In this document: piece after piece, positions 36,042 to 59,839 of the stretch | How the letters are laid out: the number at the start of each line of letters is the position of its first letter | How positions within the stretch are numbered: the first letter of the stretch is position 1 | Source: Loigolactobacillus jiayinensis | GTDB lineage: Bacteria; Bacillota; Bacilli; Lactobacillales; Lactobacillaceae | Direction: 5' to 3' | Length of the DNA: 64,000 nt | NCBI RefSeq assembly: GCF_003946445.1 | Contig: NZ_RHOF01000007.1 | Span: forward strand, 1 to 64,000 | The notes under the pieces: model-generated | Told to the model about the DNA's origin: nothing | Databases searched by the model: none | Seen by the model: the letters and a program-made list of their open reading frames with translations, nothing else | Translations under genes and position numbers: made by a program

Positions 36042-36166
36042 ATAGTACTAAATGTAGTCAAGAAAGCACTTTTTTAGTTTGCTAAAATAGATAGTGGAAG
36101 CGGAAACACGCTAATTGAGTATCAGGGTGTTATTCTGAGGTTGAAATCATAGTGGGAGGGTATAAG

Positions 36167-37249
36167 GTGACGCAGAATGATAGTTATGCTTTTGCTCAAA
36201 TCTCTACCGAGCAAGATGTTAATGATCGAGTCGCTAGCTTATTGGAGCAGACATTACAGCAACAAGCGCCAACCGCTACGTTGCAACGTTTGCCTTACCT
36301 CGATGATGATTATCTAACTGCGATTATGACCTATTATCAGCAAGCAGTTCAAACGATGACTGTAACGGGGCCACTGAAAATGCCGGTTACCGCGCGTTAT
36401 GGTGTTTTAGCCGGTGGGAAAACGGTGGTTATCGATGTTCAAAGTCTGCTAGGACCACAACTAATTCCTGAAATTGCTCGCAGCCCATTGACCGCAACCA
36501 GCTTTGGTCTGGGTGAGTTAATGCGTAAAACACGGACAACCCAAACCACAGACTATATTTTTGTTAACTTGGTGAATATAACTAATGATATTGGTGTAGG
36601 TGCCTTGGAAGCATTAGGGGCCAAGCTGACCGATGATCAAGGCCGACCAATTCATGGTGGTGGTAAGATTGGTCGGCTGCAGCGGATCAATGTGGCGCCG
36701 TTAAGTAATTGGCAAGGATTACATTATCATTTCTATACCACTGAATCAGCACGCGGGCCGTTGTTAGGTGCAACCGGCATTACTTATAGGAATGTAGCGT
36801 TGACTGGTGCTAGTCCAGAAATTGCCCAAGTGCTGGAAGCACAGGTACAACAATTTAGTGATCAAGTGGTAGCCGCTAAGTTTACCGATTGTCGTACCAC
36901 AGCAACGGCAGGTTTAGCTGGTGGTTTAGGCTATTGTTTCCAAACTTTTTTTAAGCAAGTATCGTTTACTGATATGGCCACAGCATTTATTCAGGATACG
37001 GCGAAAATGACTTTAGTTCAGCAGACAGCGTACTATTTTGTTAGTGCTCATAATACTAGTTATCGTAGATTATTAGCTCAGTTTAATAAGCAGGTGCTTG
37101 TTTTGACGGATACAGCTGAGATCACGCTGGGGGCTAATGAGGTTGTTTTAGCTAAATATCCCCGTGATATTAATAATCATAATCAAATAAAAGTTTTTAC
37201 AGCAGCCTTAAAGCAGGCTTTACAGTTGATTTATTTCCGTCAAATTTAG
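36167..37249 (+). CDS. Divergent glycerate kinase-like protein
   Basis: About 360 residues from GTG at 36167 after GGGAGGG. The middle follows the glycerate kinase (GarK/GlxK) fold: TVTGPLKMPVTARYGVLAGG (residues about 68-87), ITNDIGVGALEALGAKLTDD (about 142-161) and a glycine-rich AGLAGGLGY (about 245-253). The usual N-terminal APDSFKGS-type opening, the GIGGSATNDGG loop and the GEGRLD motif are altered or absent (VNLVNITNDIG and VSAHNTSYRR instead). It may therefore not be an active kinase. It lies 18 nt before pduU and is probably co-transcribed, implying a link with the microcompartment. Confidence 0.7.
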   Translation: MTQNDSYAFAQISTEQDVNDRVASLLEQTLQQQAPTATLQRLPYLDDDYLTAIMTYYQQAVQTMTVTGPLKMPVTARYGVLAGGKTVVIDVQSLLGPQLIPEIARSPLTATSFGLGELMRKTRTTQTTDYIFVNLVNITNDIGVGALEALGAKLTDDQGRPIHGGGKIGRLQRINVAPLSNWQGLHYHFYTTESARGPLLGATGITYRNVALTGASPEIAQVLEAQVQQFSDQVVAAKFTDCRTTATAGLAGGLGYCFQTFFKQVSFTDMATAFIQDTAKMTLVQQTAYYFVSAHNTSYRRLLAQFNKQVLVLTDTAEITLGANEVVLAKYPRDINNHNQIKVFTAALKQALQLIYFRQI

Positions 37250-37267
37250 AAGCGAGAGGTGTCGGTA

Positions 37268-37627
37268 ATGGTAGTGAATGGGACAACAAAAAAGCCTGAA
37301 CGTATGATTCAAGAGTATGTTCCGGGTAAACAAGTGACGTTGGCGCACATTATTGCTAGTCCAGATAAAGATATTTATGCAAAATTAGGGCTAGATGACG
37401 ATAATAATGCGTTGGGTATTTTAACGATCACACCTAGTGAAGCATCGATTATCGCCAGTGATATTGCAACTAAGGCTGGTAATGTGAAATTAGGTTTTAT
37501 CGATCGTTTCAGCGGTTCTGTTGTTATTTGTGGCGATGTTTCTGATGTTGAATCAGCGTTGACACAAGTGATTGAAAAGTTGCATAGTATTCTTGATTTT
37601 TCGATACCGGCGATCACCCGTACTTAA
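37268..37627 (+). CDS. pduU: Microcompartment shell protein PduU
   Basis: A 119-residue circularly permuted BMC-domain hexamer protein. It matches the PduU layout: [19 protein letters not shown] (residues about 12-30, the N-terminal beta-barrel part), then [22 protein letters not shown] and [19 protein letters not shown], ending PAITRT. Length is close to Salmonella PduU (116). GAGAGG gives ATG 37268. It is separated from the main pdu operon by pocR, with a cobalamin riboswitch directly after it. Confidence 0.92.
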
Positions 37628-37649
37628 AATAAAACTAAAATTAAATTAT

Positions 37650-37790
37650 GACCATTCAAGTAATCCAAAGGAAACTAGTGAAACTCTAGTGCTGTACCCG
37701 CAACTGTAAGATGGACAATGCATATAACCACATTAATTTGGAAGGATATGCGGCGGTTGAAATCAAGTCAGGATATTTTGGTGAATGGAT
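37650..37790 (+). promoter_or_regulatory. Cobalamin riboswitch facing the 3' end of pocR
   Basis: The core motifs are ACTAGTGAAACTCTAGTGC, TACCCGCAACTGTAAGATGG (B12-box-like) and AAGTCAGGATATT near the 3' side. A P1 stem closes it: CCATTCA near 37652 pairs with TGAATGG near 37782. A hairpin (GCTTTTC to GAAAAGC, 37797-37818) and a terminator (37846-37880) follow. No plus-strand gene starts between it and pduA 1.3 kb away; the next gene, pocR, is on the opposite strand. It therefore probably controls a transcript antisense to pocR. Confidence 0.85.
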
Positions 37791-37845
37791 GTGCTAGCTT
37801 TTCCGGGAGTAGAAAAGCCGCAGCGTTTATTTGAGTTTATAAAAA

Positions 37846-37880
37846 GACGCAGCGGAAATCCCTCCGTTGCGCCTTTTTTT
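37846..37880. terminator. Terminator after the riboswitch and after pocR
   Basis: ACGCAGCGGA and TCCGTTGCGC pair with one G-U, with seven T on the plus side and TCTTTTTAT on the minus side, so it can stop both the riboswitch transcript and pocR. Confidence 0.85.
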
Positions 37881-37883
37881 ATC

Positions 37884-38867
37884 CTAATGTGTCTGAATCT
37901 GTTTACGATACTGGCTCGGTGAGGCGCCCACTGCCTTTTTAAAAGTTTTACTGAAATAGCTGGTTTGGGAAAAGCCAAGGCTATGCGCGATACTATCGAC
38001 TGACCAAGTTGAATCTTGTAACAAAATTCGAGCGCGATCAATTTTCTTGTTATTAACGTAGTCGACAAAATTGATCTGCATTTCTCGTTTGAATAGCTTG
38101 CTTAAGTAGTAGCTGGATAGGAAAACGTGTTCGGCAACTTCATCAAGACTAATAACTTCATTGAGATGTTTATTGATATAGTCCAACGCCTTTTTGATTT
38201 CTGGTTTCACCGACTGTGTGGCGTGTTTAGTGTGGTGCTGTTTGGTAATTGAAAAATCAATTTTAGCAACCTGTTGTTTGTGATCAGCTGGTGCCGGGCC
38301 TATTTTGGCTTTGATTTTTGCGGGGACAGGGGCCGGTGCATCGACCTCAAAGGTACCATTAACAATATTTGATAAGTAATTGTTAATGATGATTTTCAGC
38401 AATTCCGCGCCAGATTTAATTTTACTTGGCTTAACAGTTGGTAAGTTAGCATAAGCTGCACTGAGAATCGGATCTTTGTGCCAATCCGTTTGCTCATTTA
38501 AAATGGGTTGGAACTCTGAGGTGTCATCAACCTTAGCTTGGCCACAAAGAATATAGCCGACGACCTGCTCATCTAACTTGATGGGATAAGAAAAGTCAAT
38601 CAAACCAGCGTGGCAAATATATGGCTGTGATTGCTTAGCTTGAACGGCGCGCCGGCCACCAAACATATCACAGTTTTGACAAAGTTGTCGTGTTTTTTCG
38701 TTATTGCGCATTAACTGACAAAAAGGGGTGAAGCCATAGCCGTAAGTTAGTTCGTCACCACGCGTATCAACAAGAATCGTGGGTAGACCTGTTGCCTCAG
38801 CAAATTCACGTAAAATCTTATCGAGGATTTTCTGATTGTTACCAAAATAATTTTCCGGCTCGAGCAT
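37884..38867 (-). CDS. pocR: AraC-family regulator PocR of the pdu/cob genes
   Basis: About 327 residues. The N-terminal PocR sensory domain (ILDKILREFAEATGLPTILVDTR region, then CQNCDMFGGRRAVQAKQ and CHAGLIDFSYPI, residues about 10-125) is followed by a linker. A C-terminal AraC double helix-turn-helix follows (ISLDEVAEHVFLSSYYLSKLF and DSIAHSLGFSQTSYFSKTFKKAVGASPSQYR). PocR senses propanediol or glycerol and activates pdu and cob transcription in related systems. GGAGGTAATCAG sets ATG 38867. It diverges from pduA. Confidence 0.93.
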   Translation of the reverse strand: MLEPENYFGNNQKILDKILREFAEATGLPTILVDTRGDELTYGYGFTPFCQLMRNNEKTRQLCQNCDMFGGRRAVQAKQSQPYICHAGLIDFSYPIKLDEQVVGYILCGQAKVDDTSEFQPILNEQTDWHKDPILSAAYANLPTVKPSKIKSGAELLKIIINNYLSNIVNGTFEVDAPAPVPAKIKAKIGPAPADHKQQVAKIDFSITKQHHTKHATQSVKPEIKKALDYINKHLNEVISLDEVAEHVFLSSYYLSKLFKREMQINFVDYVNNKKIDRARILLQDSTWSVDSIAHSLGFSQTSYFSKTFKKAVGASPSQYRKQIQTH

Positions 38868-39138
38868 CTGATTACCTCCAAAATATTTTGTAAAAAAATA
38901 ATTTACAATTAGCAATAAACAATAAATATAATTTTAAGTATAGTCTGAAATTGATAGTTAGTAAACCTTGACTGCAAGCGCTTAAGATAAATGTAAGTGT
39001 TTTTTTGCAGTGCAAGATAATACTAATTATACACTATCATTTTTTTGACAAAGCCCAGAATTCGGCAACAATGTCGCATTCTTTTTTTTTATACTAGAGT
39101 TTGTAAACAGTTACATTCCAATCTGAGGAGGAATCGTT
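38868..39138. promoter_or_regulatory. Divergent pocR/pdu control region with cre-like site
   Basis: A 271-bp AT-rich region. TGCAAGCGCTTAAG at 38973-38986 resembles the CcpA cre consensus TGWAANCGNTNWCA with two mismatches. TATACTAGAG at 39090-39099 could be the -10 of the pdu operon. PocR binding sites are expected here but cannot be pinpointed. Confidence 0.5.
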
Positions 39139-39453
39139 ATGCAACAAGAAGCTTTAGGCTTAATCGAAACACGTGGTCTCGTCGCGTCGATCGAAGCAGC
39201 TGATGCAATGGTCAAGGCAGCTAATGTCGAATTGACTGGTCAAGAAAAAATTGGGCAAGGCCTGATCACGGTTATGGTACGTGGTGATGTCGGTGCCGTT
39301 AAGGCCGCTGTCGATGCTGGTGTTGCGGCTGCAGAAAATGTTGGTGAAGTTGTTTCTAACTACGTCATTCCACGTCCACATACAGATGTAGAAAAGATTT
39401 TACCAACGCCAGGTGCAGTTGGTGATGGCGACGTCAACGTTGAAAATGATTAG
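39139..39453 (+). CDS. pduA: Microcompartment shell protein PduA
   Basis: A 104-residue BMC-domain protein forming hexameric facets. The family pattern [20 protein letters not shown] (residues about 4-23), the pore-region stretch and [18 protein letters not shown] are intact, ending in the IPRPH...EKILP motif. It is the first gene of the operon, after a GAGGAGG site. It is very similar to PduJ at 47333. Confidence 0.95.
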
Positions 39454-58740: not shown

Positions 58741-59603
58741 ATTTACGATCAATAAGTGCCAGTTGTCCAGCTACTTGCGGCGAATTATTGCAGGGCTGGT
58801 TAGCTGGTTCAGAAAAATTAGTTGCTTACGGCATTGATTTAGCTAGTCAAGTGACGGCTGAATTAGTGCCAACATGGCCAGTAATTCCAGTAACACAACA
58901 AAAAATGTATCAGCTTTGTCGGTTGTTGTTGGGGTATTTGCAGCAGCCACACGCTAAAATCAGGTTAACCCGATCTAGTAAGATTCCAATCGGTAAAGGG
59001 ATGGCTAGTAGTACCGCTGATTTAGTGGCGACTTGTCGTGCTGTTGCTAGATTATTCGAGTGTACGCTAACGGCTGCGGAAATTACCGCTTTATGTGTGC
59101 AAGTGGAAGCTAGCGATGCCTCTGCCTACTTGGCCCAAGGCTTAACCGTGATTGATGCGCATACTGGGCAGGTTTATTGGCAAACTGATTGGCGGCCACT
59201 ATTTGCCAGTTTGATTTTGGAACCGGCACCGCAATTATCAACTGCACTGGTTCATCAGCAACTATCCGTGTTACAATTACAGAGACAGGCAGATGTGTTT
59301 GCACAAACCTATCAAGTTTTTGTGCAGGCTGTACAGACGCATTCATTATCGTTATTAGGTCAGGCAGCAACTCGCAGTGCCCAGCTACGACAACAGATAT
59401 TGCCGAAACCATACTTTGCAGAAATTCAGCAGTTTGCGCAGACTCAGCCATTTTTTGGTTTAAATGTGGCGCATTCTGGCACGGTGATTGGTTTGTTGTT
59501 TGATCCGCAGCGAGTTGTTGCAAAAGTATTATTGCAGCAACTTAGGCAGCAACCGTTTAGTCGTTATTATCGAAGTTATATTCAAGTAACACAATTTAAT
59601 TAA
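58737..59603 (+). CDS. pduX: L-threonine kinase PduX
   Basis: A 288-residue GHMP-family kinase producing L-threonine phosphate for CobD. The N-terminus SCPATCGELLQGWLAGSEKL (residues about 9-28) and the ATP loop KIPIGKGMASSTADLVAT (about 81-98) are diagnostic. The start overlaps the cobD stop. Confidence 0.92.
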   Translation: MNLRSISASCPATCGELLQGWLAGSEKLVAYGIDLASQVTAELVPTWPVIPVTQQKMYQLCRLLLGYLQQPHAKIRLTRSSKIPIGKGMASSTADLVATCRAVARLFECTLTAAEITALCVQVEASDASAYLAQGLTVIDAHTGQVYWQTDWRPLFASLILEPAPQLSTALVHQQLSVLQLQRQADVFAQTYQVFVQAVQTHSLSLLGQAATRSAQLRQQILPKPYFAEIQQFAQTQPFFGLNVAHSGTVIGLLFDPQRVVAKVLLQQLRQQPFSRYYRSYIQVTQFN

Positions 59604-59615
59604 GACAAAATAAAT

Positions 59616-59759
59616 GTTGATCAGAACCGGGAAAAAGGTGCAAAGCCTTTGCAGACCCTAGCTACTGTGATGTGGACGAACGCGACAAGACCCACTGGTA
59701 AATTTACTGGGAAGGGCAGCTAGTAGGATGAAACTAAGCCAGAAGACCGGCTGATCAAC
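59616..59759 (+). promoter_or_regulatory. Cobalamin riboswitch of the cbi operon
   Basis: A 9-bp P1 stem GTTGATCAG/CTGATCAAC closes the aptamer. Inside are GGGAAAAAGGTGCAAAGCC, GCAGACCCTAGCTACTGTGA, CCACTGG, CTGGGAAGG and AAGCCAGAAGACCGGC, the conserved core of the B12 element. The terminator at 59840-59877 lies just before cbiA, so cobalamin should shut off the operon. Confidence 0.92.
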
Positions 59760-59839
59760 TACATGTTCGGGAAAACTTCTGAGGGTATTAGTTTTGCTAT
59801 TTCTGGCGTACAGTCAAATACTGTCTTGCTGGGTAGTAC

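Follow-up and report, generated by a model that had tools for sequence, protein, structure and literature searches.

A cobalamin riboswitch predicted to control an antisense RNA to pocR in Loigolactobacillus jiayinensis

A cobalamin (B12) riboswitch that faces the 3' end of pocR in Loigolactobacillus jiayinensis very probably controls an antisense RNA of about 1.4 kb to this gene, so that PocR would be made only when B12 is present. The riboswitch lies on contig NZ_RHOF01000007.1, in a stretch of 64,000 nucleotides analysed as a whole and referred to here as the window (its genome is G000). The sequence elements, their positions (Table 1) and their conservation are direct observations. The first-pass annotation had suggested that the logic of the Listeria antisense RNA AspocR exists in a lactobacillus. 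This is borne out for the layout, P13 with its loop L13, the predicted antiterminator and the two terminators T1 and T2, all of which are conserved, while the B12 logic is what we infer from them.

Table 1. Features of the pocR region, in window coordinates
Feature	Position	Strand	Remarks
Glycerate-kinase-like gene	36152-37249	+	PF02595, E 5.1e-36; under the NCBIfam TIGR00045 cut-off
pduU/EutS-like shell protein gene	37259-37627	+	BMC domain PF00936
Weak promoter-like site (uncertain)	37601-37630	+	TCGATA-18-TAAAAT; 9/12 matches
Cobalamin riboswitch aptamer including P1	37652-37788	+	RF00174
L5	37694-37701	+	Inside the aptamer
P13 stem, 7 bp	37797-37818	+	Loop L13 CGGGAGTA at 37804-37811
Predicted antiterminator strand	37818-37827	+	CCGCAGCGTT; pairs with the T1 5' arm or lower P13
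Terminator T1	37846-37880	+	Arms 37846-37855/37864-37873; T run 37874-37880
pocR	37884-38867	-	PF10114 PocR sensory domain, E 1.8e-38; AraC HTH (HTH_18, 1e-21)
Terminator T2	39057-39089	+	-8.6 kcal/mol; 1/60 and 4/200 shuffles as good
pduA, first pdu operon gene	39139-39453	+	BMC domain, 1.3e-30

On the plus strand, the RF00174 match spans 37668-37778. It covers positions 45-169 of the 189 in the model, with E 2.3e-9 and 49.5 bits against a gathering score of 31.5. P1 falls outside this local match but is present as a perfect 7 bp helix (37652-37658/37782-37788), and CGGG in L13 is complementary to CCCG in L5, as read from the sequence by eye. With a score above gathering, the conserved core, P1 and the L5-L13 complementarity, the RNA belongs to RF00174, and we read it as a cobalamin riboswitch that would bind its ligand. 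It had been described as a complete aptamer, which is true of the core only; no P2 was seen by eye in the pocR-side aptamer. In a sister Loigolactobacillus species (G123) the aptamer is identical at 129/137 positions (94%), compared to 181/327 (55%) and 60/118 (51%) at the third codon positions of pocR and pduU, respectively. The spacer between pocR and T2 is identical at 138/189 positions (73%). Because of this difference between aptamer and third codon positions, and because the layout recurs in other families, the pocR-side riboswitch is not considered a chance match.

The riboswitch adjoins genes of propanediol utilization (pdu). The pduU-like product scores 116.9 bits against NF012012 (EutS), slightly short of the cut-off of 123. 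The pocR product matches NF047788 with an E value of 2e-80 and 270.3 bits and does not reach the equivalog cut-off of 500 bits. Since this cut-off is reached in none of 395 Lactobacillales genomes, 15 Listeria-like ones among them, it carries little information here. pocR is divergent to pduA and its product combines the PocR sensory domain with an AraC HTH, as is characteristic of PocR regulators; it is the regulator of pdu and the proposed target of the antisense RNA. Past pocR the plus strand carries pduA, pduB, a second pduB-like frame (40321, by eye), pduC (41199) and pduG (44512), and beyond these pduV/eutP-like, pduO and cobD-like genes. That the riboswitch has no plus-strand gene to regulate for about 1.3 kb was confirmed: the ORF list of the window holds no plus-strand ORF of at least 60 aa between 37628 and 39138, and pduA, the next plus-strand gene after the riboswitch, starts 1.26 kb beyond T1. 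A hidden plus-strand gene over pocR was also considered and dropped; the nine ORFs between 37880 and 39138 are short (24-41 codons, starting with TTG in eight cases and GTG in one) and none is gene-like by eye. The window contains a second cobalamin riboswitch (59586-59767, 72.9 bits) which precedes cbiA/cobB, cbiB, and cbiC in the canonical sense arrangement. It shares the aptamer family with the pocR-side riboswitch but acts in sense, and its response to B12 is expected to be opposite in sign. A third B12 riboswitch of the AdoCbl family (RF01482, 99.2 bits) is found elsewhere in the genome, on contig C49 (L003 1514-1662).

A terminator directly at the 3' end of the minus-strand pocR had been claimed, and T1 is found exactly there. 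Its hairpin has a predicted energy of -17.1 kcal/mol, its T run stops 3 nt short of the pocR stop codon, and the gap between the aptamer match and this stop codon is 105 nt. A run of A on the 5' side makes T1 terminator-shaped on the minus strand too, therefore T1 can double as the terminator of pocR itself. The T1 sequence aligns poorly with that of G123 (13/28), and the hairpin is present in both species. Upstream of T1, the predicted antiterminator strand can form a duplex with the T1 5' arm (nine pairs, one mismatch, -13.2 kcal/mol), which is equalled by 13/500 shuffles of the upstream stretch. In a fold that stops at the T1 loop, the antiterminator duplex forms with a probability of 0.85 and the lower P13 pairing with 0.03; once the T1 3' arm is added, T1 forms with a probability of 0.999. 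As T1 wins in the full-length fold regardless, switching would depend on co-transcriptional kinetics. The nascent fold suggests that read-through is favoured without ligand, and that P13 stabilized by the L5-L13 interaction would favour T1. In the same nascent fold, GGGA of L13 (37804-37811) is paired with the complementary UCCC in the T1 loop (37856-37863); the T1 loop of G123 has no such complementarity.

The antiterminator was compared across 14 loci, several of which are close relatives and therefore not 14 independent cases. In 13 of them, all but Vagococcus humatus, the stretch that pairs best with the T1 5' arm has a constant offset from L13, while 32-99 of 300 shuffles per locus also hit that offset. 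The offset is kept although T1 sequences vary between lineages. Taken singly, the pairing energies are modest: five of the 14 loci (two of the five nearly identical) stand at 25/500 shuffles or fewer, and four others stand at 59 (G123), 111 (V. humatus), 146 (G539), and 230 (669A) of 500. An intrinsic terminator between aptamer and pocR together with a competing antiterminator, one of the marks of an AspocR-type unit, is thus predicted for the window.

The second terminator, T2, directly abuts TATACT (39090-39095), the putative -10 box of pduA, and 32/33 of its positions (97%) are identical in G123. Of the loci in which a riboswitch lies close to pocR, 17 were examined (16 convergent loci and G569, with one of 15 Listeria-like genomes included), and all 17 have a T2-like element. 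In 15 of these loci none of 60 shuffles was as good, compared to 1/60 and 3/60 in the two Loigolactobacillus loci. The hairpins of the window (-8.6 kcal/mol) and G123 are also the weakest, against -13.7 to -23.6 kcal/mol elsewhere in the set. Only two riboswitch-less pdu genomes are valid controls, and T2 is missing from both (G033, -2.0 with 30/60 shuffles as good; G691, -4.0 with 16/60). L. iwatensis (-6.7 kcal/mol, 11/60 shuffles as good) was rejected as a control because no pduC was found in its genome, and L. backii, also without pduC, was left out. The distance from hairpin to pduA is 44-56 nt in 15/17 loci (46 nt in G528 and G644, 44 nt in G692), 87 nt in Listeria, and 129 nt in G569. 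For covariation, 14 of the 17 hairpins were used, 11 of them distinct (Listeria, G569, and G644, which is identical to G528, were left out). Each of 13 stem positions forms a standard pair in 9 to 11 of the distinct stems, and changes on both sides occur at eight positions (1, 4, 5, 6, 8, 9, 10, and 11).

In Listeria cossartiae, the T run of the hairpin (from 4768 downwards) coincides with the 3' end of the Rfam family rliH (L048 4765). According to the available part of PMC8079631, RliH is probably a processed fragment of AspocR, which is 1,400 nt long. The span from P1 to T2 in the window is approximately 1,440 nt, and T2 is likely to be the 3' end of the antisense RNA, which predicts a transcript of about 1.4 kb. 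The loop-proximal motif of T2 resembles GACAAAAATGTC. In G033 it is kept as CGACAAAAATGTG in the absence of hairpin and riboswitch, from which it is suggested that the inner motif may also be a PocR operator. A search of the window for this candidate operator was uninformative (47 matches versus 43 expected), and the sole exact match is the T2 copy itself, from which the pattern was derived.

How plus-strand transcription reaches the riboswitch is less clear, and both a promoter of its own and read-through from pduU are possible on the sequence. In the region around 37601-37630, promoter-like sites are no commoner than in shuffles, and the weak site listed in Table 1 has no counterpart in G123 by eye. 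The best-scoring site of the window, TTGACA-18-CATAGT (2/200 shuffles), lies inside pduU, 81 nt upstream of the aptamer core, and G123 has no counterpart of it either. Across 16 scored loci, a set which does not include G569, a near-consensus promoter was found 25-46 nt before the aptamer core in ten (at most 2/200 shuffles as good), and none in G123, CSURQ0835, Listeria, G474, and G692. Listeria makes the RNA, as stated in the available part of PMC8079631, yet scores none, so the scan misses real promoters. There is no terminator-like site between pduU and the aptamer. As neither of the two Loigolactobacillus loci has a convincing or conserved promoter, read-through from pduU may feed the riboswitch.

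The distribution of the layout was examined in 37 more genomes, selected because they contain a PocR match (33 through an order-wide profile search and four through a Lactobacillaceae search). A convergent RF00174 match directly 3' of pocR was found in 24: 15 Listeria-like genomes, G123, G472, G492, G539, G540, G474, G692, G644, and G528. The pocR gene of Vagococcus fluvialis was missed by the order-wide search and recovered through locus L045; G492 is taken as this species since its RF00174 matches stand at positions identical to those of G721. Among the 13 without such a match, the riboswitch of G569 precedes pduUV, pocR of G584 lies at a contig end, four (G033, G691, and G068 and G097, which are listed under Loigolactobacillus) have no riboswitch 3' of pocR, and seven (G494, G552, G546, G713, G659, G618, and G638) have distant PocR-like matches only. 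Named Lactobacillales loci, which overlap in part with the 24 genomes, carry the convergent riboswitch in 11/13 cases: six Enterococcus (CSURQ0835, 669A, E. avium, E. pingfangensis, MJM16, and E. raffinosus), V. humatus, V. fluvialis, and three Listeria. In the remaining two, the contig breaks off 157 and 336 nt after the pocR match. The gap between aptamer and pocR stop is 96-578 nt in 14 measured loci, where the value of 578 nt is from E. raffinosus (L104, counted among the 11) and was measured from the early stop of a frame-shifted pocR. In the record of E. raffinosus DSM 5633 this frame-shifted gene is at L104 4959-5855, and riboswitch, T1 and T2 are present. Twelve CRISPR repeats (RF01335) were observed near the V. 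humatus pocR locus (L044 7897-8658).

Outside Lactobacillales, seven of 13 loci (Salmonella, Klebsiella, Citrobacter, Escherichia, Yersinia, Aeromonas, and Vibrio) have a riboswitch downstream of pocR on the pocR strand, and the other six have none within the locus. The enterobacterial sRNA STnc230 was found immediately upstream of pocR on the opposite strand (L051 4838-4920, with equivalents in L053, L058, and L064). A search for the same layout in other Lactobacillaceae, as the first-pass annotation had called for, succeeded in G123 and went no further: among 397 sampled genomes, with the best few candidates per genome scored, the convergent layout occurs only in the window's genome and G123. 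Matches beyond Loigolactobacillus in this PocR search were mostly partial HTH. On this sampling the layout seems not to be a general feature of the family, though loci beyond the few candidates scored in each genome may have been missed. In G033 (L006), the order glycerate-kinase-like gene, pduU, pocR, pduA is kept and pduC is present, while the pocR riboswitch, T2 and a cobB match are absent. In G569 (L166 2223-3421) the order is riboswitch, pduU, pduV and a convergent pocR, with the riboswitch 1.07 kb from pocR; this may represent an intermediate layout, where B12 would control pduUV as well. A connection of the antisense switch with B12 synthesis was considered and abandoned. It fits inside the genus (cobB in G000 and G123, none in G033) but fails outside it: cobB is found in 8/14 antisense-switch genomes (absent from CSURQ0835, E. 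pingfangensis, G474, G692, G528, and G644), and G691 has cobB but no antisense switch.

AspocR/Rli39 of Listeria monocytogenes reportedly goes back to Mellin and colleagues in 2013. The available text of PMC8079631 and PMC7154746 describes it as a B12 riboswitch that controls an RNA antisense to pocR. The window resembles it in the convergent B12 riboswitch 3' of pocR, the transcriptional terminator, the regulator and pathway, and an antisense RNA that reaches almost to pduA (reported there, predicted here). The differences are that lmo1149 is the upstream gene in Listeria and pduU, after the glycerate-kinase-like gene, in the window; that the window has no evident promoter of its own; that T1 is also terminator-shaped for pocR; and that the window unit is from Lactobacillaceae and known here from sequence. 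A 2023 survey, as far as its accessible part extends, reports antisense cobalamin riboswitches at pocR computationally for other Listeria and for Vagococcus carniphilus, with a layout equal to that of the window, and by its own account just two riboswitches acting in antisense were on record until then (PMC9943018). From the parts available of PMC9943018 and PMC7154746, the S-box antisense control of ubiG-mccBA in Clostridium acetobutylicum is similar in that a riboswitch drives an antisense RNA and the genes are expressed in the presence of the ligand, and different in its ligand (SAM) and its genes. The main text of PMC9943018, as available, contains neither "lactobacill" nor "enterococcus", and its supplementary tables may list such cases. 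A pocR antisense riboswitch is likewise not described in the accessible parts of PMC5064896 (L. coryniformis), PMC4122935 (L. reuteri), and PMC8123684, and the main text of PMC11784251 contains neither "riboswitch" nor "pocR". In the literature searched, which lacked most subscription papers, no report of an AspocR-type unit in Lactobacillaceae was found. The unit is possibly the first of this type to be pointed out in the family, the kind itself being known from Listeria.

Ligand binding, switching, the transcript, and the effect on PocR can be put together as follows. Plus-strand transcription would start at a promoter close to 37.6 kb or continue from pduU. Once (adenosyl)cobalamin is bound, L5 would pair with L13, and the extended P13 would sequester the antiterminator strand and allow T1 to form; the RNA would then end at about 37880 and pocR would be expressed. 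Without B12, the antiterminator strand would pair with the T1 5' arm, and polymerase would cross all of pocR in antisense and stop at T2, just short of the pduA promoter. PocR would drop and the B12-dependent pdu enzymes would not be produced, with T2 preventing the antisense transcript from itself turning on the pdu genes.

Other explanations were weighed against this one. Since pduA is the next plus-strand gene, the riboswitch could directly control the pdu operon from a long leader, with pocR embedded antisense in a 5' UTR of 1.5 kb. The position of T2 between riboswitch and pduA argues against this sense leader, which was dropped: in 17/17 riboswitch loci T2 intervenes and read-through is expected to stop, and the sign would be wrong, as B12 would switch off B12-dependent enzymes. 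Such a leader is very improbable. It seems improbable, too, that the riboswitch merely tunes the 3' end of the glycerate-kinase-like/pduU operon, with T1 mainly the terminator of pocR and any antisense effect incidental. That reading would accommodate a riboswitch in tandem after pduU, with no terminator-like site between them and no clear promoter of its own, as well as a T1 shaped for both strands. However, ten of the 16 scored loci have their own promoter-like site before the aptamer, E. avium and E. pingfangensis have an extra hairpin past T1 near the pocR stop which resembles a terminator of pocR's own, and T2 is left without a role.

The gene order of G569 and the position on the pocR strand in 7/13 loci outside Lactobacillales would agree with a riboswitch that once acted in sense, like the one preceding pduUV in G569, and was stranded by rearrangement. 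A relic is not expected to keep 94% identity in its aptamer where third codon positions keep 51-55%, nor to have P1, P13, antiterminator, and T1 all present; this reading was dropped on the aptamer conservation and is extremely improbable. As for the short terminated RNA of approximately 230 nt being a trans-acting sRNA itself, there is a parallel in the Listeria eut operon, where Rli55, which is under the control of a B12 riboswitch, binds EutV (available part of PMC8079631). This would leave the placement against pocR and T2 unexplained, and is scarcely credible. The B12-controlled antisense RNA to pocR is the reading preferred here. An extension of it, offered tentatively and rather unlikely in its full form, is a two-terminator antisense module of Lactobacillales in which T2 overlaps a PocR operator and, in Loigolactobacillus, read-through from pduU would leave B12 to decide whether the shell transcript becomes a pocR silencer.

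That the unit, including its second terminator, is conserved in Listeria, Vagococcus, Enterococcus, and a lactobacillus supports the mechanism known from Listeria on evolutionary grounds. The conserved unit supplies covariation data, and a non-pathogenic food bacterium offers a place to test the mechanism, with G033, which has the same gene order and neither riboswitch nor T2, as a natural comparison strain.
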